Virus record (IMG/VR): IMGVR_UViG_3300031569_000043
Span: 1 to 23,122 of that record
Length of the DNA: 23,122 nt
Direction: 5' to 3' (one strand)
Source of the DNA: a virus
The notes under the pieces are model-generated. The model was not told the origin of the DNA. It did not search any database and worked only from the letters and a program-made list of their open reading frames with translations. The stretch's first letter is position 1. Each line of letters starts with the position of its first letter. Position numbers and translations under genes: made by a program. Below, one piece after another: positions 2,328-22,880 of this stretch.

Positions 2328-3296
2328 ATGATAAAACTAACCACTCTTCTCAAGCAAGTAATAACAGAAGGAGGTAACGTATTTGGAACAACAGCACCAA
2401 TACAGAAGGATAAAATAGAACCTACATTAGAGAAGTTCGTTGAGGAGTTAGGTAGGATTTTTCCTACCAAAGCTTCTGCCTTTACTTCTTTTGAAAAACT
2501 AGGCTCAGCAGGTAAAAAAGATATGTCCGGCGACATAGATGTAGCCTTCCCTGTAGCACATCTAACTAAAGACGGAAAACCTGACCTAGAAGGTTGGGGT
2601 TTAGATGAAGAGAAGTTTAACGAATATTTTAATATATTTAGAAAGAGAGCAAGAACCGCTACAGAGTCTCAAACTAAACTAAAAGCAATGCTTACCTTAA
2701 TCGCAGAGAAGATTAATGAAAAGAGCACAGTACTACAGGCAGATCCTAAATCAGCAGGATCTAATTCTCTATTCTTAGCCTTTCCTCAATACGGAGTAGA
2801 CGGTGGAAGACAACCAGAGCTAATACAAGTAGATATAAATGTAGGAGATCCAGAATGGTTAAAATTCAGCTACTATTCAAACATGTACAAAGGAGTAGTT
2901 AAAGGTCTTCACAGAACTCAATTAATGTTAGCATTATTTACTGCAAAAGGCAAGATGTTTAAACACGAACAAGGAGTATTAGATAAAGAAACCAGGGAAA
3001 TAGAAGCTACTACACCAAAACAAGCCTTAACACTACTAAATAAACTTTATAGTATCGAATTGACTCAAGACCAGTTAAACGACTATTTTGAACTGTCTGA
3101 TGTATTAACATCGGAATTATCTAAAGAAGATTACGGTAAGGTTATGGACATATACTTAAAAATATTAGATAGAACTGGTCCATCTGCCCATGTACCGGAA
3201 AATCTAGAAGATTACTGGATAGCAAATCAAGAAAGATTAGGACTAACCGGTAAAAGGTTACCAGACGATTCAAACCTTAAAAAATACGCTAAGTAA
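2328..3296 (+). CDS. nucleotidyltransferase (Pol beta-like fold), possible head cargo
   Basis: This 322-residue protein has the signature of the Pol beta nucleotidyltransferase superfamily. A GS pair (G59, S60) is followed by SGDIDV with D69 and D71, and a third carboxylate, D169, lies in the QVDINV strand. These residues bind metal and the nucleotide triphosphate. The acceptor (RNA, protein, small molecule) is unknown. The N-terminus, about 14 residues long, ends VITE|G, a good match to a T4 gp21 prohead-protease site ((L/I)-x-E) at the end of a short targeting peptide. That suggests packaging into the prohead, but this is inference. The stop codon overlaps the start of the next gene (TAATG), and the next protein begins with a second domain of the same fold. 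Confidence 0.7.
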   Translation: MIKLTTLLKQVITEGGNVFGTTAPIQKDKIEPTLEKFVEELGRIFPTKASAFTSFEKLGSAGKKDMSGDIDVAFPVAHLTKDGKPDLEGWGLDEEKFNEYFNIFRKRARTATESQTKLKAMLTLIAEKINEKSTVLQADPKSAGSNSLFLAFPQYGVDGGRQPELIQVDINVGDPEWLKFSYYSNMYKGVVKGLHRTQLMLALFTAKGKMFKHEQGVLDKETREIEATTPKQALTLLNKLYSIELTQDQLNDYFELSDVLTSELSKEDYGKVMDIYLKILDRTGPSAHVPENLEDYWIANQERLGLTGKRLPDDSNLKKYAK

Positions 3297-6200
3297 TGTC
3301 AGGAGCAGCAGGAGGAACAAGAATACCAAGATCAGCAGTCGAACAGACAGTAAAAGACTATACGGAGAAAATACTCTCTAAAATAGAAGGCTTTAAAGAC
3401 GCTAAACTATCTGGATCTTTCAACAGACCGGATAAAGATGATTTTGGAGACATAGATATAGTAGTAACTATAGAGACAGGAGACGATAAGAAGGTAACTA
3501 AGAAGAAAATAATGGACTTGTTTACCACACTTCCTGATGACGAGCTACCGCCTCTTAGAAATCCTAAATACAAAGGTAAGAAAGCCATAAACCACGGAGA
3601 GATGGTATCCAACCTTTACCCTATATCAGGAATGCCTGGAGAATTTGTACAGGTAGATAACATTATAGCTCTATCTTCCGAAGAAGGATCGTTTAAGAAA
3701 ACCGTATTAGACTACCCAGCAGAACTTCAAGGAATAATACTAGGACTAGTAAAAACACCGTTACTAGAAGAAAAGCCAGAAGTAGTCTTTGCAAGGATGG
3801 GAATAAAAGACATACCAGAACCGGGACCTACTCAAGAATATGAGTTTCATATAGATACCGCAGGGTTAACTTTAAGACTGGTAACATACGGAGACAACTA
3901 TAAGATACTAGACAGTAATACTGTATGGCAATCTAGAGACTTCGCAGACGTAGAAAAACTACTAAAGGATTTTAACCTAGATGGTAGCTTTAGAGAACTT
4001 ATAGAACAAGTTAAAAACCTAAAAAATCCCCGCTCTAAGAATAGAGTTAAAGGATTCTTTAAAAGATCTATAAAAGTAGGAGCAGCAGAACGAGGTACAC
4101 CTAAAGGAGACGTAAAGCAACAAGCACTAGATACTGTAGATACTTTACAAGAAAGCAAAGCACTACTAACCCGTGCTAAGCTAGCAACAAAGTACTTAGA
4201 TGAAGATGAGAAAAGCAGGATAGCAGTATTTCCTGGAGCTTTTAAACCGCCTCACAAAGACCATATTGCTAGAATAAACGCAGCATCTAAGAAAGTAGGG
4301 GAGAATGGAAAAGTACTTGTACTAGTATCACCACTTCCTAGAACAAAAGAAGGACAGGAATCAATCTCTGCAGAACAAACTATTGCAGTATTCAACCTAT
4401 ACAAAGATAAAGGTATAATACCAAACAACGTAGCTTATAGGATAGCAGATGATAACTCACCAATTACAGCAGCATATAAAGAATTCGAAAGCGATAAAAC
4501 GCAACCTTATATCGCTGTATTTGGAAAAGACGATAAGGCGAGGTTTAGTAATATAGAAGATAAGTTACCGAACGTAGTTGTCGATAGCTTTGAAGAAGCA
4601 GGAGTAGGCAACGCATCCGCAACAGATCTTAGAACCGCTATCGCTAACAGAGATAAGGAAACAATAGCAACATTCATACCTGCAGAAGTTACAGCAGAGG
4701 AGTACTTAAACACGCTAGGAGTAAAAGAGACTATAGAAGAAGATGCATCAACCGACACCAACCTGTGGGAACCGCATGCTGCAATGTTAGCTAAGATAGA
4801 AAAGAAACCAGAACTACTTAAAGGGCTCTGGAAGAGTCTATCTAAACCCTCTAGGAAAGCCTTAGTACTCTACTTCAGGGAAAAGAATACACAAGTAGAA
4901 AATGTAATACCAGCAGCAGACGAAAAAGCTGCTCCTTACGGTTCCGGATACACTCCAGTAGAGGAAAGTCTTTGGGCTAATATCAACGCTAAAAAGAAGA
5001 GAGGAGAGAAACCTTCTCACGGAAACTCTAATGCATTTAAAGCAGCAAAGAAAGCAGGAGCTGCTCTCAAAAAAACAAAAGGACTAGAAGAGGGAAGCGG
5101 AGAAAAGAAGTTAAGAGTCTTTGACTTTGACGATACTTTAGTACATGTAGATGCAACAATATACATAACACATAAAGACGGAACAAAATCAGGACTAACG
5201 CCAGCAGAATACGCAGTCTACGTTCCACAGCAAGGAGACTTATTTAACTTCTCAGAATTCAGCTCTGTAATTAAGAAAGCTAAACCCTTAGAGAGTAATA
5301 TAGCAGATCTAATTAAATCCTACAACGACCCAACAGAGAAAACTACAATACTAACAGCAAGACTTCTAGGGTATCCGGTTAAGAAGTATTTAAAAGATGA
5401 ATTTAATATCGAACCTTATGTAGTAGGGCTGGGTTCAAGTGACCCGGAAGATAAATCTCGCTGGATTGAATCTCAAATTAAAAAAGGATATAACAACATT
5501 GAGTTTAGGGATGATTCTCAAAAGAATGTAGATGCAGTAGCGAGCCTTAAAGGTAAATACCCAGAGGTAGAGTTAACTTCTATGTTAGTAGCAGAAGGAG
5601 TAGAATCTATATCTCCAAAGCTCACCATTAACGAGAACGCTAGTTACTCTAAGAATATAGACATCAAGTATAAGATAGCAGAACTAGCTCAACACATGAT
5701 AGATAAAGGTATGAACGTACAGCCTCTACCTTCTGTTGAATTTATAAACGGAAACTCTAAAAACGCTGAAGAGTTTCTCGGCAAGACAGCCTACTACGAT
5801 CCGGCATCAAGTACAATAGTACTATACACAGAAGGAAGACACCCTAAAGATATCGTAAGATCATTTGCACACGAAATGATACATCACATTCAAAACTTAG
5901 AGGGAAGGTTGAATAATATTACAACAGCAAATACACTGGAAGATAGCAACTTAAACGATATTGAAGCTGAAGCTAACCTAAAAGGTACAATGACATTTAG
6001 GAACTGGACTGATAGTTTAAATGAATTAAAAAAGACCCCAGAATTACAAAAAAAGAAAATAAATATATCATTCGAACTTTTCGATGGAACTAAAATCTCG
6101 GAAGATATTACATTAGCTATGTCTCTTAACAGTCAAGGTTTATTTGAGTTAGGAGATAATATTGAAAAGTACTCAGGACTAACCCTAAAAGATGCTCAAG

Positions 6201-7786
6201 AATTTAACGAGACACCGGACGATGCTTACATCTACGGATTAGTTAACACTATGAACGACGGTCAAGATATATTCTTCTGGACTAACGGTACAAGACTACA
6301 AGGGAACGCTAAAAGAATAGGTACCCAAACAGCAGTAATAGAACAACTAGCTCATGAAGGCTTACATTTAACTAGAGCAATATTAGCTAAATCATTAATG
6401 GGAGATGGATTCCCAACCGAAGAGTGGCCTTCTATAGGAGAGCAAGACAATGATAGAATAGAGGAAGAACAATTAACTACTGCATTGAGTCATGTACTAG
6501 AAAAAATAAGTACCCCTTTCATAAAAATGGCTTCTAAATACCTACCTAAACTAGACCTAAATGAAAATACAGGTGATTCAAACCCGTTAAAGTTACCGTA
6601 CATCGATACCTGGCATAAGGGTCAATACGAAGTAAAAGATGGAGACTTTAAAGCTGGAATTAAATTAATGACTCAAGCTGCTAAGGAAGCTGAAAAATTA
6701 GCTAAAGAAGAACAAGATGGTGGAATAGCGGGTGAAGCAGGTTATTATAGAGGTACTGTTGCATGGTTAAAAAAAGATTATAATACAGTTGAAAAGTACA
6801 TTAAGGATAAATTTGTTAAATCAACAGGTAATGATGAAGTATTAAATCGTCTTTTAAAAAGTAAAGGTAAAACTTACAAAGAAGCATATCATTTAAAAGA
6901 AGCAATTGTAGGCGATAAAATCGAATGCGATAATTGTGGTTGGAGCTGGAAAATAGCAGATGGTGCAGATGATCTATTTATATGTCATAAATGCGGACAT
7001 GATAACACCCCTCTAGAGGAAAAGAAAAATAAAGACCCATTCGGCCTAAACCAGTACGCCCGTGAATTAGCAGCAGGTTTAGAAGAGGTGTTAATAAACG
7101 AAGGAGCATACGACACAATGACTGCTCAAGTATCTTCAGACATATTTAAGGCATGGAAAGACCAATTCAGTAAGGATAGTACTATAGAACAAGCTACATT
7201 CACAAAGAGTTACGACTTATTAAGTAAGACCGGAAGATCTATTGTATTCGATTTACAAGCAGACCTTAACTTTGTAGAAACAGAAGAAAGCATATACGCA
7301 CCAAACGGAAATGCAGATGCTGGAGATTCTGAAATATACGATGATGAAGGTGACATAGAAGATGCCGGTATAGACGGTAGCATACACCTGTATTTTCAAG
7401 TGGATCCCCGTACCTTACCTAAACTATGGTCTACTATATCAATGGACCTAAAAGACACCGTTAGACACGAAATTGAACACTTAACACAGGCCGGGTATAA
7501 TGTAATTCCTTCAAAAGAATTACCAGACGATAAACGATTAAGGTATTATATCAATGATCTAGAAATTCTACCAGCAAGCGATTACTATCTTTTAGATAAA
7601 GAGATACCAGCAATGCTACAAGGTTTACATTACAAGGCAAAAAAGATGAAGAGACCTTTTAAGGAAGTAGCAGAAGCATATTTAGATATCTTTGTGAATA
7701 ACGGAACAATAGATGCAGAGGCTAAAGTAGATGTACTTAACCGATGGAAACCAGAAGCTAAGAAATTAAATCTACCTTCCTTGTAA
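3296..7786 (+). CDS. giant multidomain protein: NTase, HIGH-NTase, HAD, three HExxH segments, zinc ribbon
   Basis: This 1496-residue protein joins several enzyme-like domains. Residues 1-160 are a Pol beta-type nucleotidyltransferase (G40 S41, D52, D54, D121). Residues about 305-475 are a HIGH-superfamily nucleotidylyltransferase (FPGAFKPPHKDH with H320 and H323; SATDLR at 441-446). Residues 490-600 are an unassigned Lys-rich stretch with SLWANINAKKKRGEKP. Residues 605-768 are a HAD phosphatase (FDFDDTL with D610 and D612; LTAR with T687; FRDD with D739 and D740). HExxH zinc motifs lie at 859-863, 1020-1024 and 1391-1395, each with a Glu further on that could be the third ligand (E890 or E892; E1056-1058; E1436). 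A four-Cys zinc ribbon lies at 1211-1233. No signal peptide or membrane segment is seen. All six (L/I)xE|(G/A/S/N) sites (after 286, 599, 780, 1090, 1202, 1269) sit in interdomain linkers, so it may be a polyprotein cut by the prohead protease. Domain calls are firm for NTase, HIGH and HAD; peptidase activity and packaging are inferred. Confidence 0.75.
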   Translation: MSGAAGGTRIPRSAVEQTVKDYTEKILSKIEGFKDAKLSGSFNRPDKDDFGDIDIVVTIETGDDKKVTKKKIMDLFTTLPDDELPPLRNPKYKGKKAINHGEMVSNLYPISGMPGEFVQVDNIIALSSEEGSFKKTVLDYPAELQGIILGLVKTPLLEEKPEVVFARMGIKDIPEPGPTQEYEFHIDTAGLTLRLVTYGDNYKILDSNTVWQSRDFADVEKLLKDFNLDGSFRELIEQVKNLKNPRSKNRVKGFFKRSIKVGAAERGTPKGDVKQQALDTVDTLQESKALLTRAKLATKYLDEDEKSRIAVFPGAFKPPHKDHIARINAASKKVGENGKVLVLVSPLPRTKEGQESISAEQTIAVFNLYKDKGIIPNNVAYRIADDNSPITAAYKEFESDKTQPYIAVFGKDDKARFSNIEDKLPNVVVDSFEEAGVGNASATDLRTAIANRDKETIATFIPAEVTAEEYLNTLGVKETIEEDASTDTNLWEPHAAMLAKIEKKPELLKGLWKSLSKPSRKALVLYFREKNTQVENVIPAADEKAAPYGSGYTPVEESLWANINAKKKRGEKPSHGNSNAFKAAKKAGAALKKTKGLEEGSGEKKLRVFDFDDTLVHVDATIYITHKDGTKSGLTPAEYAVYVPQQGDLFNFSEFSSVIKKAKPLESNIADLIKSYNDPTEKTTILTARLLGYPVKKYLKDEFNIEPYVVGLGSSDPEDKSRWIESQIKKGYNNIEFRDDSQKNVDAVASLKGKYPEVELTSMLVAEGVESISPKLTINENASYSKNIDIKYKIAELAQHMIDKGMNVQPLPSVEFINGNSKNAEEFLGKTAYYDPASSTIVLYTEGRHPKDIVRSFAHEMIHHIQNLEGRLNNITTANTLEDSNLNDIEAEANLKGTMTFRNWTDSLNELKKTPELQKKKINISFELFDGTKISEDITLAMSLNSQGLFELGDNIEKYSGLTLKDAQEFNETPDDAYIYGLVNTMNDGQDIFFWTNGTRLQGNAKRIGTQTAVIEQLAHEGLHLTRAILAKSLMGDGFPTEEWPSIGEQDNDRIEEEQLTTALSHVLEKISTPFIKMASKYLPKLDLNENTGDSNPLKLPYIDTWHKGQYEVKDGDFKAGIKLMTQAAKEAEKLAKEEQDGGIAGEAGYYRGTVAWLKKDYNTVEKYIKDKFVKSTGNDEVLNRLLKSKGKTYKEAYHLKEAIVGDKIECDNCGWSWKIADGADDLFICHKCGHDNTPLEEKKNKDPFGLNQYARELAAGLEEVLINEGAYDTMTAQVSSDIFKAWKDQFSKDSTIEQATFTKSYDLLSKTGRSIVFDLQADLNFVETEESIYAPNGNADAGDSEIYDDEGDIEDAGIDGSIHLYFQVDPRTLPKLWSTISMDLKDTVRHEIEHLTQAGYNVIPSKELPDDKRLRYYINDLEILPASDYYLLDKEIPAMLQGLHYKAKKMKRPFKEVAEAYLDIFVNNGTIDAEAKVDVLNRWKPEAKKLNLPSL

Positions 7787-8683: not shown

Positions 8684-10048
8684 ATGGATAACTTTAATAT
8701 AAGAGCATACCTAGCAGAAGGTAGATTAAACGAAGAAGAGGGAGTAAACAGTAGGAAGATACTAGCAACCTTAGAGGATAAGTTAAAGAAGCACGACTTT
8801 ACATACGGCAATGCAGATGGAAAGAGGTATACGAAAGGAGTAGATGAGCGAAAAGAAATAAACGACTTAATTAAAGCTCTAGGTAAAAGCGACGAAGCGA
8901 TAGCACTCTACAATAGATACGCTGCAAAAAACAACGTAAATAATAACGGTTCGGACTATACAATCAAGAAGGACTCGATTAAAGAAGTAACAGTAGAGGA
9001 AAAAAGACCCGACTACCCGGATGTAGATAAAGATGGCGATACAGAGGAGTCAATGGAAAAAGCTCTTAAAGATAGAGAAACAAGCACAGTAACTAATGAA
9101 GCTACAGCAGAAGATGCAGAAGGTACTAATTTCGATTACGACTACGCAGACATCGGACAGTTCTACCTAGAAGGACTTAATAAACCTTTTGATCTAACTG
9201 AAGACGAGTTAAAAGATTTAGGTGAATCAATAGTACGAACCCTATACAAAGGTGACATTAAAGCAGCTTACGATGCTATTGTTCACAATAAAGGCTTAAA
9301 GCATATAGTTAAGTATTCAAAACCAAACGATACATACCAAGTATGGTTAGCAGATGAAATAGTAACTGATTTTGCTACTAGAGAAAAAGCAGATGCTGAA
9401 GTTAGAAGGTTAAATGCTTTACAGGAAGATAAAATTGAAATAGAAGATACAACTGAATTTAAAATAGACTTAAAACATTTATTAGATAAACACGCTGTAA
9501 AAGAAGATTATTATCCTTCACTCAGAGCATACAATGTTATTGACGGAGATCGTAATATAGTATATAAAAACCTACCACGTCACACTGCAATAGAAAAAGC
9601 AGGTGAAAGAGAAGATTATAAATTTACAGCTACCGATTCATTAGCAGAAGATTTAGACATAGGACATCAAGACAACGAACCAGAAATGTTAAAAGCAGAG
9701 CTTTACCACATTGGTAGTTACGCTATGGAACTGTATAAAATGATGGATGCTTTAGAAGGCCAAGGTGAAGTTGATTTCCCAGCTTGGTGGCAATCAAAAA
9801 TTACTACAGCTAAAACTATGATCTCCGGTGCTAAGCATTACCTCGAATTTGAATTAAAAGAACCGGCTATCGAAGATATGGTAGATAATTTAACAGTGAG
9901 TAGTGTAGAGCTTCAAGAACTAACCCCAAACGAATTAGCAGGAGAAACAAAAGATGGACCTAATGCATACGAGGGGAAAATGCCACACTCAAGCAGCAAA
10001 GTAGAAGAGTTAAAGAAAGCAGTTTTAGCAAAGCTAAGCGGAAAGTAA
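8684..10048 (+). CDS. acidic virion-associated protein with N-terminal prohead-protease site
   Basis: This 454-residue acidic protein starts with a short peptide ending YLAE|G (L10-E12), closely resembling the targeting peptide of T4 internal proteins, followed by a second site, LNE|E (15-17). An EF-hand or dockerin-like acidic loop (D113, D115, D117, D119) suggests calcium binding. Residues about 325-390 (DIGHQDNEPEML, then YAMELYKMMDAL, then DFPAWWQ, then KHYLEFE) form a module that I recall from many marine T4-like phage proteins of unknown function. The middle, about 147-320, uses codons unlike the flanks (mostly TTA for Leu) and may be an inserted domain. The ATG lies 1 base after the previous stop. 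Role in the virion is inferred. Confidence 0.62.
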   Translation: MDNFNIRAYLAEGRLNEEEGVNSRKILATLEDKLKKHDFTYGNADGKRYTKGVDERKEINDLIKALGKSDEAIALYNRYAAKNNVNNNGSDYTIKKDSIKEVTVEEKRPDYPDVDKDGDTEESMEKALKDRETSTVTNEATAEDAEGTNFDYDYADIGQFYLEGLNKPFDLTEDELKDLGESIVRTLYKGDIKAAYDAIVHNKGLKHIVKYSKPNDTYQVWLADEIVTDFATREKADAEVRRLNALQEDKIEIEDTTEFKIDLKHLLDKHAVKEDYYPSLRAYNVIDGDRNIVYKNLPRHTAIEKAGEREDYKFTATDSLAEDLDIGHQDNEPEMLKAELYHIGSYAMELYKMMDALEGQGEVDFPAWWQSKITTAKTMISGAKHYLEFELKEPAIEDMVDNLTVSSVELQELTPNELAGETKDGPNAYEGKMPHSSSKVEELKKAVLAKLSGK

Positions 10049-15101: not shown

Positions 15102-15122
15102 ATGTATATTAGGAAATATAGA

Positions 15123-17021
15123 ATGGCAGATACAAGTATATTAAGCAGACTTAAGAGATTATTCTCTACAGATGTTATAATTAGAAACGTTGGTGGAGAC
15201 CAACTCAAGATTGCAGACGTTAATCAAATACAGATGTCCGGTAATCTAGAAAACAACTCATTCCACGATAGATATTCCAGTATACACTCTACGAGTCCCT
15301 CATCAATGTACGGCAACCAACAAGCGTACAACTACCAGACCTTAAGAACACAACTATACTCTGAATATGATGTAATGGACACAGACGCTATCATAGCCTC
15401 TACCCTAGACATACTATCAGAAGAGTCAACACTAAAGAATGATATGGGAGAAGTACTTCATATCAAATCTGCTGACGAAAACATACAGAAAATACTATAT
15501 AATCTATTTTACGATGTACTAAACATAGAATTTAACCTCTCCTGGTGGATACGAAACGCCTGTAAGTACGGTGATTTCTTCTTAAAACTAGAAATATCAG
15601 ACAAATACGGAGTATACAACGTAATACCCTTCACCGCCTACCATATAGAGAGACAAGACGGTTATGATAAGGATCACCCAATGTCTACTAGGTTTAAGTA
15701 TAATGAAGGAGGCTTATCAGGAGAAAGTTACGGGTACTACAGTACACCTAACACTAATGACGAGAAATCTGTATACTTCGACAACTACGAAATGGCTCAT
15801 TTCAGGTTATTAACCGACGTTAACTACCTTCCCTACGGAAGATCATACCTAGAACCTGCTAGAAAGTTATTTAAACAGTATACTATGATGGAGGATGCAA
15901 TGCTAGTACATAGAATCGTTCGAGCTCCTGAAAAAAGAATATTCTACATGAACGTAGGAGGAATAGCACCTGCTGAAGTTGAAAACTTCATACAGAAAGC
16001 TATATCTAAGATAAAGAAGACTCCTTTTATGGATCCGCAGACAGGAGAGTATAACCTGAAGTATAATATGCAGAACCTCATGGAGGATTTCTACATACCT
16101 ATGAGGAACGGAGATTCAACAACAAAGATAGACACATTAGGAGGACTACAGTACGACGGAATACAAGATGTAGAGTACTTACGTAATAAACTATTTGCCG
16201 CTCTTAAGGTACCTAAAGCATTTCTAGGATACGATGAAAACCTTCAAGGAAAAGCAACATTAGCAGCAGAAGATATACGCTTTGCTAGAACAGTGGAGAA
16301 GATACAAAGAATAATGATCTCAGAGCTATATAAAATAGCTTTCGTACACCTATACTCTCAAGGATACACTCAAGAAGAACTTGTAAATTTCGAACTCTCA
16401 CTAACTACTCCTTCTATAATATACGATCAAGAGAAGGTAGCACTTTTAAAAGAGAAAGTTGATTTAATGGCATCAATGAAAGAAACTAAGATGTTCTCTA
16501 GCGATTGGATGTATGAAAACATCTTCCACCTATCTTCTGAAGAGTATGAAGAGATGAGAGACCTAACCGCAGAGGATGCTAAGAGAGAGTTTAGAATGTC
16601 TCAAATAGAAGCAGAAGGTAATGACCCAATGCAGACTGGAGAATCATACGGTACACCGCATCAAATAGCAGTAGCGTACGGTAAAGGTAGAGTCTACGAT
16701 AGACCGGGTAATGTCCCTAAAGGATACGACGAAGATAAAGAGAACCCAGTAGGTAGACCGGAAGAAAAAGCTAGCTTCATTAATACTCAAGATGATCCAC
16801 TCGGACAAGATAGACTAGGACGAGATGCAATGAAAAACGACAATCAAGCAGGGTACGGAAAAAGTAAAACATCCCAACCGACCTTTGAAGGAGCGAAAAG
16901 AGAATATAATAAACACCTCAGATCTATAGAAGAGTTTCAAGATAAAAAAGTACTTCTTTTTGAAAAGAATAAAGCAGAAGGTGACTTATTAGATGAATCC
17001 CAGATAAGAGAAGAGATTTAA
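15123..17021 (+). CDS. portal protein (T4 gp20-like)
   Basis: The product is the dodecameric ring at the capsid vertex through which DNA is packaged and the tail is attached. The sequence contains typical gp20-like blocks: MDTDAIIASTLDILSEEST, a central LSWWIRNACKYGDFFLKLE, RIVRAPEKRIFYMNVGG and the region around LRNKLFAALKVPKAFLGYDE. I start at ATG 15123 (MADTSILSRLKRLF), because AGGA lies about 9 bases upstream and the ATG at 15102 directly abuts the promoter-like element; that alternative would add 7 residues. At 632 residues it is longer than T4 gp20 (524); the extra length is a charged, Gly-rich C-terminal tail from about 520. It is followed by prohead core genes, as in T4. Confidence 0.93.
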   Translation: MADTSILSRLKRLFSTDVIIRNVGGDQLKIADVNQIQMSGNLENNSFHDRYSSIHSTSPSSMYGNQQAYNYQTLRTQLYSEYDVMDTDAIIASTLDILSEESTLKNDMGEVLHIKSADENIQKILYNLFYDVLNIEFNLSWWIRNACKYGDFFLKLEISDKYGVYNVIPFTAYHIERQDGYDKDHPMSTRFKYNEGGLSGESYGYYSTPNTNDEKSVYFDNYEMAHFRLLTDVNYLPYGRSYLEPARKLFKQYTMMEDAMLVHRIVRAPEKRIFYMNVGGIAPAEVENFIQKAISKIKKTPFMDPQTGEYNLKYNMQNLMEDFYIPMRNGDSTTKIDTLGGLQYDGIQDVEYLRNKLFAALKVPKAFLGYDENLQGKATLAAEDIRFARTVEKIQRIMISELYKIAFVHLYSQGYTQEELVNFELSLTTPSIIYDQEKVALLKEKVDLMASMKETKMFSSDWMYENIFHLSSEEYEEMRDLTAEDAKREFRMSQIEAEGNDPMQTGESYGTPHQIAVAYGKGRVYDRPGNVPKGYDEDKENPVGRPEEKASFINTQDDPLGQDRLGRDAMKNDNQAGYGKSKTSQPTFEGAKREYNKHLRSIEEFQDKKVLLFEKNKAEGDLLDESQIREEI

Positions 17022-18145: not shown

Positions 18146-19318
18146 ATGAGAAGCCTACAAAACAATTATAACCTTATTACAGAAGGGAAAGGAAGTAAAG
18201 AACTCTTTATGAAACAAGTCAGAAGAGAGTTTCCTCAATATATAAGTAACGTACAGACCTTTGACCAGGCTGTCACCAAACTTAAAGAGAAGAGTATAAT
18301 ATCAGAAAACACTACGAGCAATATAACTGCTCCTATAAAAGATGTAAACTGGTTTAATATATTCCAGGAAAACCTAAACGAAGCTAAAGCTACTGAAAAG
18401 AAAACTAGTAAAGAAGTAGAAGAAGTTCAATCTAAAGCATACGACTACTCGGACCTTGATAATATGGATAACGTATTTGGACAAGAATTCCTAACAGGGT
18501 ATTATGCTGAAATGAAAGATCCAAAGAATGCTGAAAAAACTGAAGAAGACATAAAGAAGATTGTCGCTAAGAACTTAGCTAAAGACGAACTCTACTATGT
18601 AAAAGACGGACAGTTTGGAGTTAAGGGATTAGGGTATGTTGAAACTCCTACAAAAGAAGCAGAGGGTGAATACAAATCAAGTGGATACGGAACTATAAAA
18701 GAGTCTTACAATGAGGACTTAGCAGAAGAGGCTACTAGTTCTAGACAAGTTAAAGAATACATAGAAGATCAAGGAACTATAGCAAACGCTTTTGCAGACG
18801 CAAGTATAAACTCTAACGATACCGTCACCTTACGTATCACAGCTAATAGAGAAGAGACTAGATTAAAACCTATGTCTACTCAAGAAGCGATAGCTTATAT
18901 TGAATCAAAAGCTCAAGGGTTAGAGAGAACTTATAGCTTCGACGATCCAGAAGGGGACGGAGCTAAGTTAAATATTAACCTAAGTGATGATTTAGCAATA
19001 GATGTCTATAAGGCAAGGCCGTCAGACAAGTTCGTAGGAGTTAAAAAAGTAGTAGTAAAAAACACAGTAGGACTACCTGATCATATTATTAAAAGGATAG
19101 AGACACCAATGATACATTTAGGACAGGTGGAATCAGATGGATCTATATTTGCAGACCTGAGGAACCGTAAAGGTGAATCGGTTACGATCTTCTATGATAG
19201 ATTAGCTGAACCAAACGCTAAAGATACTTACGGTAAAAAAGATGAAAAAGAGATAGATGAGGAAGGCCTTATGGACCTTGAAAAACTTATAGGAGAGGTA
19301 CTTAGCAGTAAGGTGTAG
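18146..19318 (+). CDS. probable prohead core or internal protein with protease sites, 390 aa
   Basis: The N-terminus ends NLITE|G (I11-E13), like a T4 targeting peptide, and further prohead-protease matches follow at ISE|N (52-54) and LNE|A (77-79). The rest is acidic and helical up to about residue 210, then a mixed alpha/beta domain (about 225-360). The gene lies between the small coupled gene and the prohead protease, 1 base before the latter, which fits a core protein cleaved by it. The same LNEAKAT sequence occurs in the zinc-knuckle protein at residues 162-168. It is not recognisable as a named T4 protein. Confidence 0.62.
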   Translation: MRSLQNNYNLITEGKGSKELFMKQVRREFPQYISNVQTFDQAVTKLKEKSIISENTTSNITAPIKDVNWFNIFQENLNEAKATEKKTSKEVEEVQSKAYDYSDLDNMDNVFGQEFLTGYYAEMKDPKNAEKTEEDIKKIVAKNLAKDELYYVKDGQFGVKGLGYVETPTKEAEGEYKSSGYGTIKESYNEDLAEEATSSRQVKEYIEDQGTIANAFADASINSNDTVTLRITANREETRLKPMSTQEAIAYIESKAQGLERTYSFDDPEGDGAKLNINLSDDLAIDVYKARPSDKFVGVKKVVVKNTVGLPDHIIKRIETPMIHLGQVESDGSIFADLRNRKGESVTIFYDRLAEPNAKDTYGKKDEKEIDEEGLMDLEKLIGEVLSSKV

Positions 19319-19319
19319 A

Positions 19320-19919
19320 ATGAATAACCTACTAATAGAAACTAATATATTCCGACCTGTTAAAGGTACTTTGCTCGAAGGTAAACTTTCCAATAGAGGA
19401 AATCCTTTAGTAGAAGGTATACTTGCAACCGCAGAAATTGAAAACGGTAACGGAAGGTACTACTCTAAAGGCTTATGGGAGAGAGAAATAGACAAGTACC
19501 AAACTAACATATCAGAGAATAGAGCAGTAGGAGAACTAGACCATCCAGACACTACTGTTATAAACTTAAAAAACGTTTCACACAATATACTAGATATATG
19601 GTGGGATGGAAATAATATAATGGGTAAGTTAGAGATACTGCCAACTCCCTCCGGTAATATACTAAAAGCTTTAATCGAATCAAATATCACTGTAGGAGTA
19701 TCCTCCAGAGGGACAGGTTCATTAAAATCAGGAGCAGCAGTAATGGAAGTACAAGACGACTTCGAACTACTATGCTGGGACTTTGTATCAACTCCATCTA
19801 ATCCAGGATCTTATATGAACGTACTAAAAGAAGGACTAACAGGGAACTTGAAGGACTACAGTAAAGCACATAAGACCATTCAAGAAATTCTATGCAGCTT
19901 CGGCTCTTGCCCGGTATAA
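19320..19919 (+). CDS. prohead core serine protease (T4 gp21-like)
   Basis: This 199-residue protein matches the T4 gp21 family of herpes-like assembly proteases. The catalytic His is H75 in GELDHP, the Ser is in VGVSSRG (S128/S129), and a conserved DFELLCWDFVSTPS stretch follows. The family cuts core and capsid proteins after (L/I)-x-E once the prohead is complete, and then cuts itself. This protein itself contains LLE|G at 18-20, a likely self-cleavage site near its N-terminus. T4 gp21 is 212 residues. Its gene ends at a strong terminator, so the protease closes the transcription unit of the upstream head genes. Substrates in this window should include the scaffold, the major capsid protein and, by inference, the accessory proteins with matching sites. 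Confidence 0.93.
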   Translation: MNNLLIETNIFRPVKGTLLEGKLSNRGNPLVEGILATAEIENGNGRYYSKGLWEREIDKYQTNISENRAVGELDHPDTTVINLKNVSHNILDIWWDGNNIMGKLEILPTPSGNILKALIESNITVGVSSRGTGSLKSGAAVMEVQDDFELLCWDFVSTPSNPGSYMNVLKEGLTGNLKDYSKAHKTIQEILCSFGSCPV

Positions 19920-20156: not shown

Positions 20157-21188
20157 ATGGAGAACAACCGAAATTTATTTAAAGAAGCTATTGCAGAAGC
20201 AAAAGCAGTAAAAGAAGTTTCTATTGCCAATGCAAAAGCGGCATTAGAAGAAGCTCTTACACCTCGATTAAAACAATTATTCGAACAAAAACTAACTGAA
20301 ATGGACGAAGAAGAAGAAACTTACACAGAAGAGAAGGAAGAGACGAATGAACTATTCGACTTAGAAGAACTCTTAGCAGAACTTGATTCTGAAGAAACAA
20401 TGACCGAAGAAGAAGAAGTAGAGACTGAAGAAACTGAAGAAGTGGAAACTGAAGAAACTGACGACGATGCGGAGACTGATGACGATGTAGAGATTGACTT
20501 CGACAACATGACAGAAGAGGACTTAAGAACGTTTATTGAAGAGGTAGTAGACGAAATGATTGAAGCAAACGAACTAGACATGGACTCAGACGAAGAGGAA
20601 ATGGAAGATGAGGATGTTGAAATCGAAGACGAAGACGAAGCAGGAGAGATGGAAATCGAAGATGAAATGGAGATGGAAATTACTGAAGACTCTAAAGGTA
20701 ACAAGGACATGCAGAAGGAAATGGAAGGAGCTATTAGAGATGATAGAGACCACATTAAGAGTCTTGAAAAAGACCTTGCAGATGATGAGACGAAATTAGC
20801 TAAATTAAAAGCTGATCACAAAAAAGAACTCAAAGAAGCTGTAGATGCTGTTAAAAGTCTACGTACTGAACTAAACGAAGTTAATTTACTTAACTCAAAA
20901 CTACTTTACTTAAACAAGATCTTTAAGGTATCAAACTTAAAAGAATCTCAAAAGGTAAAGACTATCGCTGCTTTCGATAAAGCAGAAACAGTAAAAGAAG
21001 TAAAATTAGTTTACGAAACACTACAAGAAAATCTTACGAAAGCATCTCCAAAAGAGACTACTAAGAAACTTGTTAGAGAATCTAAAAACTTTGCTTCTTC
21101 TGCTATTATTGGAGCTTCCCCAAAACAACCTGTAATGGAAGTGGATCCAGTAATTACTAGAATGAAAAAACTTGCAGGTTTACTTTAA
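20157..21188 (+). CDS. prohead core scaffold protein (T4 gp22-like)
   Basis: This 343-residue protein has the make-up of a T4-like scaffold. It has a helical N-terminus (FKEAIAEAKAVKEVSIANAK), a very acidic Glu/Asp centre (about 45-190), and a coiled-coil region (about 195-290). A short Lys-containing C-terminal segment (DPVITRMKKLAGLL) probably contacts the capsid protein. Prohead-protease sites such as IAE|A and LEE|A occur near the N-terminus, consistent with the known breakdown of gp22 to small peptides in T4. The gene stands immediately before the major capsid gene, as in T4, and starts after AGGAAA. Its low-complexity GAA/GAT-rich DNA makes long false frames on both strands. Confidence 0.87.
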   Translation: MENNRNLFKEAIAEAKAVKEVSIANAKAALEEALTPRLKQLFEQKLTEMDEEEETYTEEKEETNELFDLEELLAELDSEETMTEEEEVETEETEEVETEETDDDAETDDDVEIDFDNMTEEDLRTFIEEVVDEMIEANELDMDSDEEEMEDEDVEIEDEDEAGEMEIEDEMEMEITEDSKGNKDMQKEMEGAIRDDRDHIKSLEKDLADDETKLAKLKADHKKELKEAVDAVKSLRTELNEVNLLNSKLLYLNKIFKVSNLKESQKVKTIAAFDKAETVKEVKLVYETLQENLTKASPKETTKKLVRESKNFASSAIIGASPKQPVMEVDPVITRMKKLAGLL

Positions 21189-21209: not shown

Positions 21210-22880
21210 ATGTCAACTGTACAAAATTTATTAGAATCTGCCAACCCTTGGCACAGCTTGCAATCTGACGCTGTTAGATTAGCAGGAAAATGGGAAAAAA
21301 CAGGCCTTTTAGAAGGCATGGACGGAGACGTAGACAAGAACAACATGTCTATGATTCTTGAAAATCAAGCAAAACAATTAGTAGTTGAGCAATCTGCTAC
21401 AGGAACTGGCGCTAGCTTTACAGCTGGTCAAGGTGAGCAATGGGCTGGAGTAGCTCTTCCATTGGTAAGAAAAGTATTTGGTCAAATAGCAGCAAAGGAA
21501 TTTGTTTCTGTTCAACCTATGAACTTACCTTCTGGACTAGTATTCTTCTTGGACTTCCAATACGGAACTTCAAAAAATCCATTTACTTCTGGAGACTCTA
21601 CTTACGGAGATACTTCTCCTGCTGATACTTTCGGTAATGCTTCAACAGGAGGTCTTTACGGAGCTGGTAGATATACTTATTCTACCAACCAGACTTCATC
21701 TGCAGCTTTAACTGTAACTAAAGCATCTGCATCTTTTGAAGACGTTAACTTTAACAGTACCTACTCTGCATCTATCGCAGCTGGTACACTTAACCCGGTA
21801 GCAGTATCTATCAAGAAACTTACTCTTGCTAACGCCGCTACTGTACTTCCTGGTTTTGATATCGAAGCCGTAAGAGGTTTCCTAATCAACGCTGCTGGTA
21901 TCACTGATGCTAACAACCTTTCAGAATTCACAGTAATGAACGGAACTTCTCTAGAATTCCTAGTAACAGGAACAGACGCTACTATGGCAGGTGCTATAGG
22001 TGGTGCTACTACAGTATTCTTTAACAAGGCTACTAGAGACGACGCAAGAGGAGACTTTGAATCAGGAGCAGCTTACGCTGTACCGAACGCTGAATCTGAT
22101 ACCGAGATTGTTATACCACAAATCAACGTTTCTATGAGATCTGAAGGTATCATTGCTAAAACTAAAAAGTTAAAAGCACAATGGACTCCAGAATTTGCTC
22201 AAGACCTTAACGCTTATCACTCTCTAGATGCAGAGGCTGAATTAACAAGTGTAATGTCTGAGTATATTTCATTAGAGATTGATTTAGAAATACTTGATAT
22301 GTTAATATCTTCTGCTGCTGCAGGTACTGAGTTCTGGTCAGCTGCAAACAACAACTTCATAAACGCTGCAAACACTCAGTTTGACGCTGCAGGAGTTGAT
22401 GCTGGAGGATTTTACAACAGTCAAGGTGCATGGTTCCAAACTCTTGGTACTAAGATGCAAAAACTATCTAACATCATACACCAAAGAACACTAAGAGGTG
22501 GTGCTAACTTCTGTGTAGTTTCTCCAACAGTAGCTACAATACTAGAAAGCATTCCTGGATTCGCTTCAAACTCTGACGGAGATGTGAGCAAAGGATCTTA
22601 TGCATTCGGTGTACAAAAAATGGGTCAAATCAACAGTAGATATACTGTTTACAAAAATCCATACATGAAAGAGAATACCATTCTTATGGGCTTCAAAGGT
22701 AGTCAATTCTTGGAAACAGGTGCAGTATTTGCTCCATATATTCCTCTAATAATGACTCCAATGGTTTACGATCCAGATACTTTCGTACCTAGAAAAGGAT
22801 TACTTACTAGATACGCTAAGAAAATGGTTCGTCCTGAATACTTTGGTAAAATATATGTAAGCGGTCTAAACACCTTATAA
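21210..22880 (+). CDS. major capsid protein (T4 gp23-like)
   Basis: This 556-residue protein matches gp23, the hexamer subunit of the T4-like shell (521 residues in T4). The N-terminal region contains KWEKTGLLEG and ILENQAKQ, as in T4 gp23 (W..LLEG, FENQ), then a likely maturation site VVE|Q after E60; T4 gp23 is cut after residue 65. After the cut comes a Gly-rich stretch with AGQ and then VFGQIAAKEFVSVQPMNLPSG, the conserved HK97-fold start of the family. The leader before the ATG is an A-rich run with no Shine-Dalgarno sequence. Codon use is shifted (more ATC, CTT, GCT and TCT than in most genes here), as expected of a highly expressed gene. A strong terminator follows. Confidence 0.95.
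   Translation: MSTVQNLLESANPWHSLQSDAVRLAGKWEKTGLLEGMDGDVDKNNMSMILENQAKQLVVEQSATGTGASFTAGQGEQWAGVALPLVRKVFGQIAAKEFVSVQPMNLPSGLVFFLDFQYGTSKNPFTSGDSTYGDTSPADTFGNASTGGLYGAGRYTYSTNQTSSAALTVTKASASFEDVNFNSTYSASIAAGTLNPVAVSIKKLTLANAATVLPGFDIEAVRGFLINAAGITDANNLSEFTVMNGTSLEFLVTGTDATMAGAIGGATTVFFNKATRDDARGDFESGAAYAVPNAESDTEIVIPQINVSMRSEGIIAKTKKLKAQWTPEFAQDLNAYHSLDAEAELTSVMSEYISLEIDLEILDMLISSAAAGTEFWSAANNNFINAANTQFDAAGVDAGGFYNSQGAWFQTLGTKMQKLSNIIHQRTLRGGANFCVVSPTVATILESIPGFASNSDGDVSKGSYAFGVQKMGQINSRYTVYKNPYMKENTILMGFKGSQFLETGAVFAPYIPLIMTPMVYDPDTFVPRKGLLTRYAKKMVRPEYFGKIYVSGLNTL

Follow-up and report, generated by a model that had tools for sequence, protein, structure and literature searches.

Phage T4 packages its internal head proteins and Alt as single proteins, with an N-terminal leader of 10 to 20 residues that ends in L/I-x-E; the prohead protease gp21 cleaves after L/I-X-E, and these capsid-targeting sequences (CTSs) are leaders of one type found on unrelated proteins (PMC9026906). 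Polyvalent proteins (Iyer et al. 2017; PMC5512222) are long, shuffled multi-domain chains with zincin metallopeptidases and nucleotide enzymes that are likely packaged in the head; their authors already likened them to RNA-virus polyproteins and ascribed processing to an embedded zincin or assemblin. Here we describe the open reading frame (ORF) at 3296-7786 on the plus strand of a 23,122-nucleotide stretch (herein the window; positions 1 to 23,122 of IMG/VR record IMGVR_UViG_3300031569_000043), a 23-kb virus contig that covers a T4-type head region. The product, P0001, is a multi-module chain of 1496 amino acids (aa). Judged from its sequence and its relatives, it is best explained as a polyprotein that is packaged into the head and cut by the prohead protease, a reading that we consider probable.

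By analogy, P0001 would work like the T4 internal proteins, through leaders and gp21, and be built like a polyvalent protein. The leaders, a gp21-type protease, T4-type head genes and, probably, enzyme cargo are common to T4 and to the clade of P0001, and Flavobacterium phage immuto likewise bears one leader type on unrelated proteins. Whereas T4 packs single proteins, the clade links its candidate cargo modules into a single chain that has sites inside it; P0001, unlike the T4 internal proteins, has no N-terminal leader of its own. In overall architecture P0001 resembles polyvalent proteins, with at least two unrelated enzymatic domains joined in arrangements that are shuffled among relatives; in contrast to the processing proposed there, a trans-acting prohead protease and motif-defined sites at module edges are indicated. 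The Dar proteins of phage P1 (DarB and DdrB; PMC9024508) are also very large and head-packaged, DarB with an N-terminal targeting signal; the available part of that account describes no string of inter-module prohead-protease sites such as that of P0001. In the giant phages SPN3US and phiKZ, gp21-related proteases (gp245 and gp175, respectively; PMC10052503) cut many head or ejected proteins after a short Glu-ending motif, but 13 of the 14 sites reported for SPN3US remove N-terminal propeptides, and none releases several enzymes from one chain. The literature searched yielded no phage prohead protease that matures a polyprotein with module-edge sites.

Placement of cut motifs in P0001

A preliminary description of the window had listed six (L/I)xE↓(G/A/S/N) sites in P0001 (the arrow marks the predicted cut). 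Their number and residues were reproduced exactly; the strict motif [LI]xE[GASN] occurs six times, with cuts after residues 286, 599, 780, 1090, 1202 and 1269. The features of the chain are as follows.

3296..7786, plus strand: P0001, candidate head-packaged polyprotein, 1496 aa
3296..4153, plus strand: module 1 (residues 1-286), DNA polymerase X/beta-type nucleotidyltransferase (NTase), from PF14792 and Foldseek
4145..4153, plus strand: site LQE↓S (286), nearby motif in 10 of 13 relatives
4154..4735, plus strand: module 2 (core 304-480), HIGH adenylyltransferase resembling NMNAT/NaMNAT, from weak matches
4958..4966, plus strand: secondary site VEE↓S (557), at the boundary immediately ahead of the “LWANIN” module
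4967..5092, plus strand: module 3 (residues 558-599), 42-aa basic peptide “SLWANINAKKKRGEKPSHGNSNA”, isoelectric point (pI) 10.4
5084..5092, plus strand: site LEE↓G (599)
5093..5596, plus strand: module 4, HAD phosphatase resembling polynucleotide kinase-phosphatase (DFDDT), from phrog_415
5627..5635, plus strand: site INE↓N (780)
5636..6022, plus strand: module 5, zincin-like 1 (HEMIHH)
6086..6550, plus strand: module 6, zincin-like 2 (HEGLH)
6557..6565, plus strand: site LNE↓N (1090), the least corroborated
6566..6901, plus strand: insert (residues 1091-1202), no family recognised
6893..6901, plus strand: site LKE↓A (1202)
6902..7030, plus strand: module 7, zinc ribbon (CDNC...CHKC), PF07295-like, below cut-off
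7031..7102, plus strand: KDPFGLNQYARELAxxLEE linker, a recurrent element with site INE↓G (1269) at its end
7103..7783, plus strand: module 8, zincin-like 3 (HEIEH), starting directly after site 1269

Module 1 matches PF14792 at the cut-off (E 2e-5), and Foldseek relates it to DNA polymerases lambda and beta (E 1e-6, prob 1.00); together with its GDIDIVV (DxD) motif, this is the fold and motif of a pol X/pol-beta-type enzyme. Matches of module 2 are weak (phrog_395, NF000843 and PF01467), and module 4 is similar to the phosphatase portion of phage polynucleotide kinase. No curated family matches the zinc ribbon or any of the three HExxH modules above threshold, and Pfam gives no zincin hit; we call the HExxH modules zincin-like on the basis of motif, conservation and established knowledge of such chains. 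A PDB sequence search with the whole chain gave no useful match. The preliminary description needs two corrections: the “insert” it placed at 1090-1202 belongs to no recognised family, and the strict motif overlooks boundary sites of the V type, VEE↓S at 557 among them.

The number of motifs in P0001 is no evidence, because shuffled proteins of the same composition give 4.9 strict sites; it carries no weight, much as the earlier estimate of about six by chance implied, and we discarded the count in this single protein as uninformative. Their placement is another matter. The cores of the eight homology-defined modules make up 79% of P0001 and hold 0 of the 6 strict sites, in agreement with the claim that the sites fall between domains and outside core motif regions. 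Shuffling P0001 class by class predicts 1.4 linker and 3.5 core sites, against 6 and 0 observed (P for at least 6 linker sites and no core site = 1.5e-4, P0001 alone).

AlphaFold2 models were made of residues 1-790 and 765-1496. The NTase, HIGH, HAD, zincin 1 and zincin 3 regions are predicted well; zincin 2, which has few relatives, is predicted poorly, and Foldseek with the second-half model (predicted template modelling score 0.39) gave no credible fold match. Sites 599, 780 and 1090 lie within stretches with a predicted local distance difference test (pLDDT) score <50, and sites 286 and 1269 border such stretches; site 1202 is at a helix end of intermediate confidence (pLDDT ∼63) just before the zinc ribbon. 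Five of the six sites are therefore modeled in or adjoining low-confidence linkers, consistent with loops or disordered linkers outside folded cores, as the structure check suggested earlier had called for.

Motif placement and specificity among relatives

A search of viral contigs returned 123 relatives, of which 80 were kept, and module searches raised the set to 326 public loci, whose ORFs were compared with P0001 by BLAST. A tblastn search for cultured relatives, with the full chain and two of the modules as queries, found only immuto phages. In immuto, whose host is Flavobacterium sp. LMO8, the orthologue (QQO92100.1; MW353176.1, 107087-109810), with predicted cuts after E286, E496 and E702, is annotated merely as nicotinamide mononucleotide adenylyltransferase, a label that conceals a four-module chain.

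Placement statistics were collected on 101 dereplicated multi-module relatives, with cores defined by homology only. Cores hold 44 strict motifs in 38,636 residues and linkers 86 in 3,177, so that the motif density is 0.027 per residue in inter-module linkers and 0.0011 in cores, a 24-fold contrast; within the cores the motif is depleted (44 vs. 121 expected). A site is present at 73 of 127 junctions, compared with 17.9 expected when the same linker residues are shuffled, the counts being not fully independent given that the modules are homologous. Junctions were also grouped by type, which reduces the effect of shared ancestry, and V and M were accepted at P3 as well; in this count, a site is present in at least half of the cases for 15 of 23 types (3.3 expected).

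The linker motif is specific at three positions. Among the residues tried at P1, strong enrichment is confined to Glu (86 vs. 18 expected; His, 3 vs. 0.9). Enrichment at P3 is 6.2-fold for Leu, 9.2-fold for Met, 2.8-fold for Ile and 2.2-fold for Val, and at P1' it is 8.8-fold for Gly, 4.2-fold for Ala, 3.6-fold for Asn and 3.0-fold for Ser (His, 3 vs. 0.4). This profile matches the T4 gp21 motif, L/I-x-E with a small P1' residue.

Sites move with module edges

The HIGH adenylyltransferase, “LWANIN” peptide, zincin 1, zinc ribbon and zincin 3 vary in order, number and gene among relatives, and shuffled modules keep the site at their upstream edge. Of 38 dereplicated internal copies of zincin 3, 36 have [LIVM]xE↓[GASN] at exactly the same offset (2.8 expected), whereas the sequence ahead of the site differs between copies. 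Standalone copies start MITLKNLIIE↓GRYDSL (L205), MQLTLSDILFE↓GKYDSL (L077) and ...FLFE↓GKYDRL (L243); a T4-CTS-like leader therefore ends at the same residue as the internal linker. For the zinc ribbon, the site is present in 22 of 52 cases (5.9 expected), and standalone L162 reads MIKLKHILFE↓AIVGDKIEC after an upstream extension. The standalone HAD of L320 starts MIKLKTILRE↓GKTVSIFDFDDT, the standalone basic peptide (L042/L272) starts MKLSNLLREIIKE↓SLWANIN, and the zincin 1 start LNE↓NASYS is found again in unrelated contexts. The “LWANIN” module is both shuffled and repeated.

Of the sites in P0001, 1269 is kept in most relatives that have zincin 3 and 286 in 10 of the 13 nearest relatives, with LAE↓A at the matching residue of immuto; 780 is kept in closer relatives, and 1202 is found in two of the nearest relatives yet is typical of the zinc ribbon family. 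The homologue comparison proposed in the preliminary description thus came out in its favor, sites being kept while the surrounding sequence is shuffled. The P1' glycine is encoded by a mixture of codons (GGT/GGA/GGC/GGG), evidence that selection acts on the protein. This mixture weakens an explanation by a conserved GAAGG-like DNA element, although the Glu codon is GAA in nearly all cases.

The chain might instead be packaged and injected whole, its motifs being left over from ancestral standalone genes, where a leader met the module edge, and mostly no longer cut. N4 vRNAP, a polyvalent protein, is packaged unprocessed (PMC5512222), and several P0001 sites are weakly conserved in orthologues. 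We nonetheless regard this as unlikely, since P3, P1 and P1' specificity is retained at fused junctions while the same motif is depleted in cores, which together indicate continuing selection.

Prohead protease and capsid protein

The gp21-like protease reported earlier for the window is real, and the genome of P0001 encodes its own cognate S77 enzyme beside other head genes.

15102-17021: gp20 portal
19320..19919, plus strand: gp21-like prohead protease, Peptidase S77 (PF03420, E 7e-27; phrog_207, E 2.5e-57)
21210..22880, plus strand: gp23-like major capsid protein (PF07068, E 2e-73)

In the capsid protein, maturation is predicted to occur at ILE↓N, residue 51 (codons 21354-21362). The clade reads [MLI]LE↓NQ(A/S)KQ in 20 of 20 capsid proteins, and in an alignment the N terminus of mature T4 gp23* falls within ∼2 residues of this cut; the site makes Asn at P1' plausible. 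Of the 22 related records, 19 encode an S77 protease, as does every one of the 16 that reach 70 kb. In record G009 (locus L332; match at 50206-50733), the protease frame contains one in-frame TAG, possibly a recoded stop or a sequencing error.

These data bear on who would cut the chain. P0001 has three HExxH domains, and release by embedded zincin or assemblin peptidases is what Iyer et al. (2017) predict for polyvalent proteins, so self-cleavage by the zincin-like domains rather than by gp21 is a rival reading. It is, in our estimate, quite unlikely: the linker motif is the L/I-x-E↓ of gp21, it also occurs on the capsid protein and on leaders of zincin-free proteins, and S77 is present alongside the system in all large records.

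Leaders and a fusion at a predicted cut site

Four genes of the window have T4-CTS-like leaders that end in [LI]xE↓G/A and are candidates, by sequence, for further head or core cargo.

2328..3296, plus strand: NTase-like gene upstream of P0001, leader MIKLTTLLKQVITE↓GGNVF (ITE↓G)
8684..10048, plus strand: protein with leader MDNFNIRAYLAE↓G (LAE↓G), a leader family shared with immuto
18146..19318, plus strand: head-cassette protein with leader MRSLQNNYNLITE↓G (ITE↓G)
20157..21188, plus strand: core protein, scaffold-like judging from its position and composition, with IAE↓A at the N terminus and several motifs further in

The gene at 2328-3296 ends in a stop codon that overlaps the start codon of P0001 (TAATG). 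L336, a record of 44.8 kb, has the upstream gene and the chain as one protein of ∼1535 aa, reading MTKLTSAIIKE↓GGNVF...LIKYQTLTE↓SGSIGANRIPRAAVE, with an LTE↓S site at the stop/start point of the window. P0001 itself starts M↓SGAAGG, its Ser being the P1' residue of that site; similarly, leaderless orthologues of the upstream gene (immuto, L005 and L226) start M↓GGNVF or M↓GGNIF, at the predicted P1' residue.

Leaders of 10 to 20 aa ending in L/I-x-E are found on the upstream gene and on many relatives (e.g., L336, L203 and L276). The leader motif was counted in 993 dereplicated genes from the first 81 loci; with the cut at residues 10-14 it is enriched 6.4-fold, and cuts at residues 7-24 number 209, compared with 61 by shuffling. 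The complete immuto genome has the motif in 12 of 32 genes of its 100-130 kb head cassette (1.8 expected) and in 6 of 184 genes elsewhere (5.4 expected; Fisher P 1.5e-7). As a control, crAss001, a Bacteroides phage with unrelated head genes, has no leader excess (5 of 96 vs. 3.7 expected). Five immuto proteins have a common MENFDLKKFLVEN-like leader, their remaining parts lacking detectable similarity.

The missing leader of P0001, together with a site number equal to chance, would suit an ordinary cytoplasmic fusion enzyme of nucleotide or RNA metabolism that never enters the head, with sites arising by accident in Glu-rich linkers. Shuffles of linker composition fail to reproduce the motif density, however; no other P1 residue is comparably enriched, and leaders and linkers are equivalent, up to the L336 fusion at LTE↓S. 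This reading is very unlikely.

Proposed processing of P0001

In the pathway that we propose, P0001 would be a head-targeted polyprotein of a marine, Bacteroidetes-type T4-like phage, with enzyme modules joined by linkers, most of which bear the (L/I/M)-x-E↓ motif of the gp21-type prohead protease that the phage itself encodes. After production from the head-gene region, the chain would enter the core of the prohead; many relatives would do so by means of a capsid-targeting leader, and P0001 by another route, perhaps with the leader-bearing upstream NTase or via helical linkers like KDPFGLNQYARELAxxLEE. During head maturation, gp21 would cut it into separate products: a pol-X-type NTase, an NMNAT-like adenylyltransferase, a HAD phosphatase, zincin-like metallopeptidases, a zinc ribbon and the 42-aa basic peptide; the upstream gene would supply a second pol-X-type NTase. 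The released enzymes would stay with the DNA and be ejected into the next cell. Related phages carry the same modules reordered, fused or as single genes with a capsid-targeting-type leader, the site moving with the module edge. The earlier proposal of entry into the head and cleavage there is supported; motif placement and specificity, the shuffling of modules with their sites, the equivalence of leaders, the fusion at a site and the co-occurrence of the protease are observed, and head entry, cleavage, packaging, injection and the enzyme roles are inferred.

Besides the partial dependence of the junction counts, several points weigh against this pathway. Gene calls were mechanical. The zincin 1 to zincin 2 linker of P0001 has no cut motif, and several “LWANIN” edges read KKE↓G or KKPG in place of the strict motif. 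Site 599 is kept only in close relatives, and site 1090 is corroborated in 0 of the 13 nearest relatives, few homologues being informative. P0001 starts MSGAAGG and lacks a leader of 10 to 20 aa ending in L/I-x-E, as do NTase-first relatives (fused L336 excepted) and many HIGH-first relatives; these chains would need another route into the head. A literature search for virion proteomics of any clade member found none.

More broadly, we lean slightly toward the view that a widespread aquatic Bacteroidetes-type T4-like clade uses a modular head-cargo system. Recombining enzyme and basic-peptide cassettes, each with its own edge site, would occur as single leader-bearing genes or as giant polyproteins of up to ∼1600 aa; enzyme sets would be packaged as a single chain, from which the head protease would free them, a tailed-phage analogue of Gag-Pol-type maturation. 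If so, tailed phages have a polyprotein strategy in which the capsid maturation protease also frees an injected enzyme set, and the leader/linker motif predicts from sequence alone which unknown phage genes are head cargo. Because Flavobacterium phage immuto is cultured, a question of long standing, what environmental T4-like phages inject, is directly testable.

Recurrent linkers and additional leader-bearing enzymes

The helical linker KDPFGLN(Q/A)(Y/F)AxELxxxLEE stands just before module starts in ∼40 contexts (window 7031-7102; L087, L120, L173 and others); it is similar to MDNFDLRKYLAE leaders and might act as a targeting element inside the chain. Another linker that recurs, GKAAPYGSGYxxVxE (window ∼4928-4966), precedes modules in 51 contexts in related loci, with the motif within the next 9 residues in 33 of them. 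The “LWANIN” fragment (4967-5092) would come off as a 4.5-kDa peptide of pI 10.4 and may be a DNA-condensing internal peptide.

Relatives also encode zeta-toxin/polynucleotide-kinase-like P-loop kinases and a DMDGV 5'-nucleotidase-like protein (L016:8787-9725, L010:4404-5171 and L018:4908-5450). These bear the same leader (MIKLSDLILE↓A; MNTSIVDLLE↓A), and more head-cargo enzymes are therefore likely.

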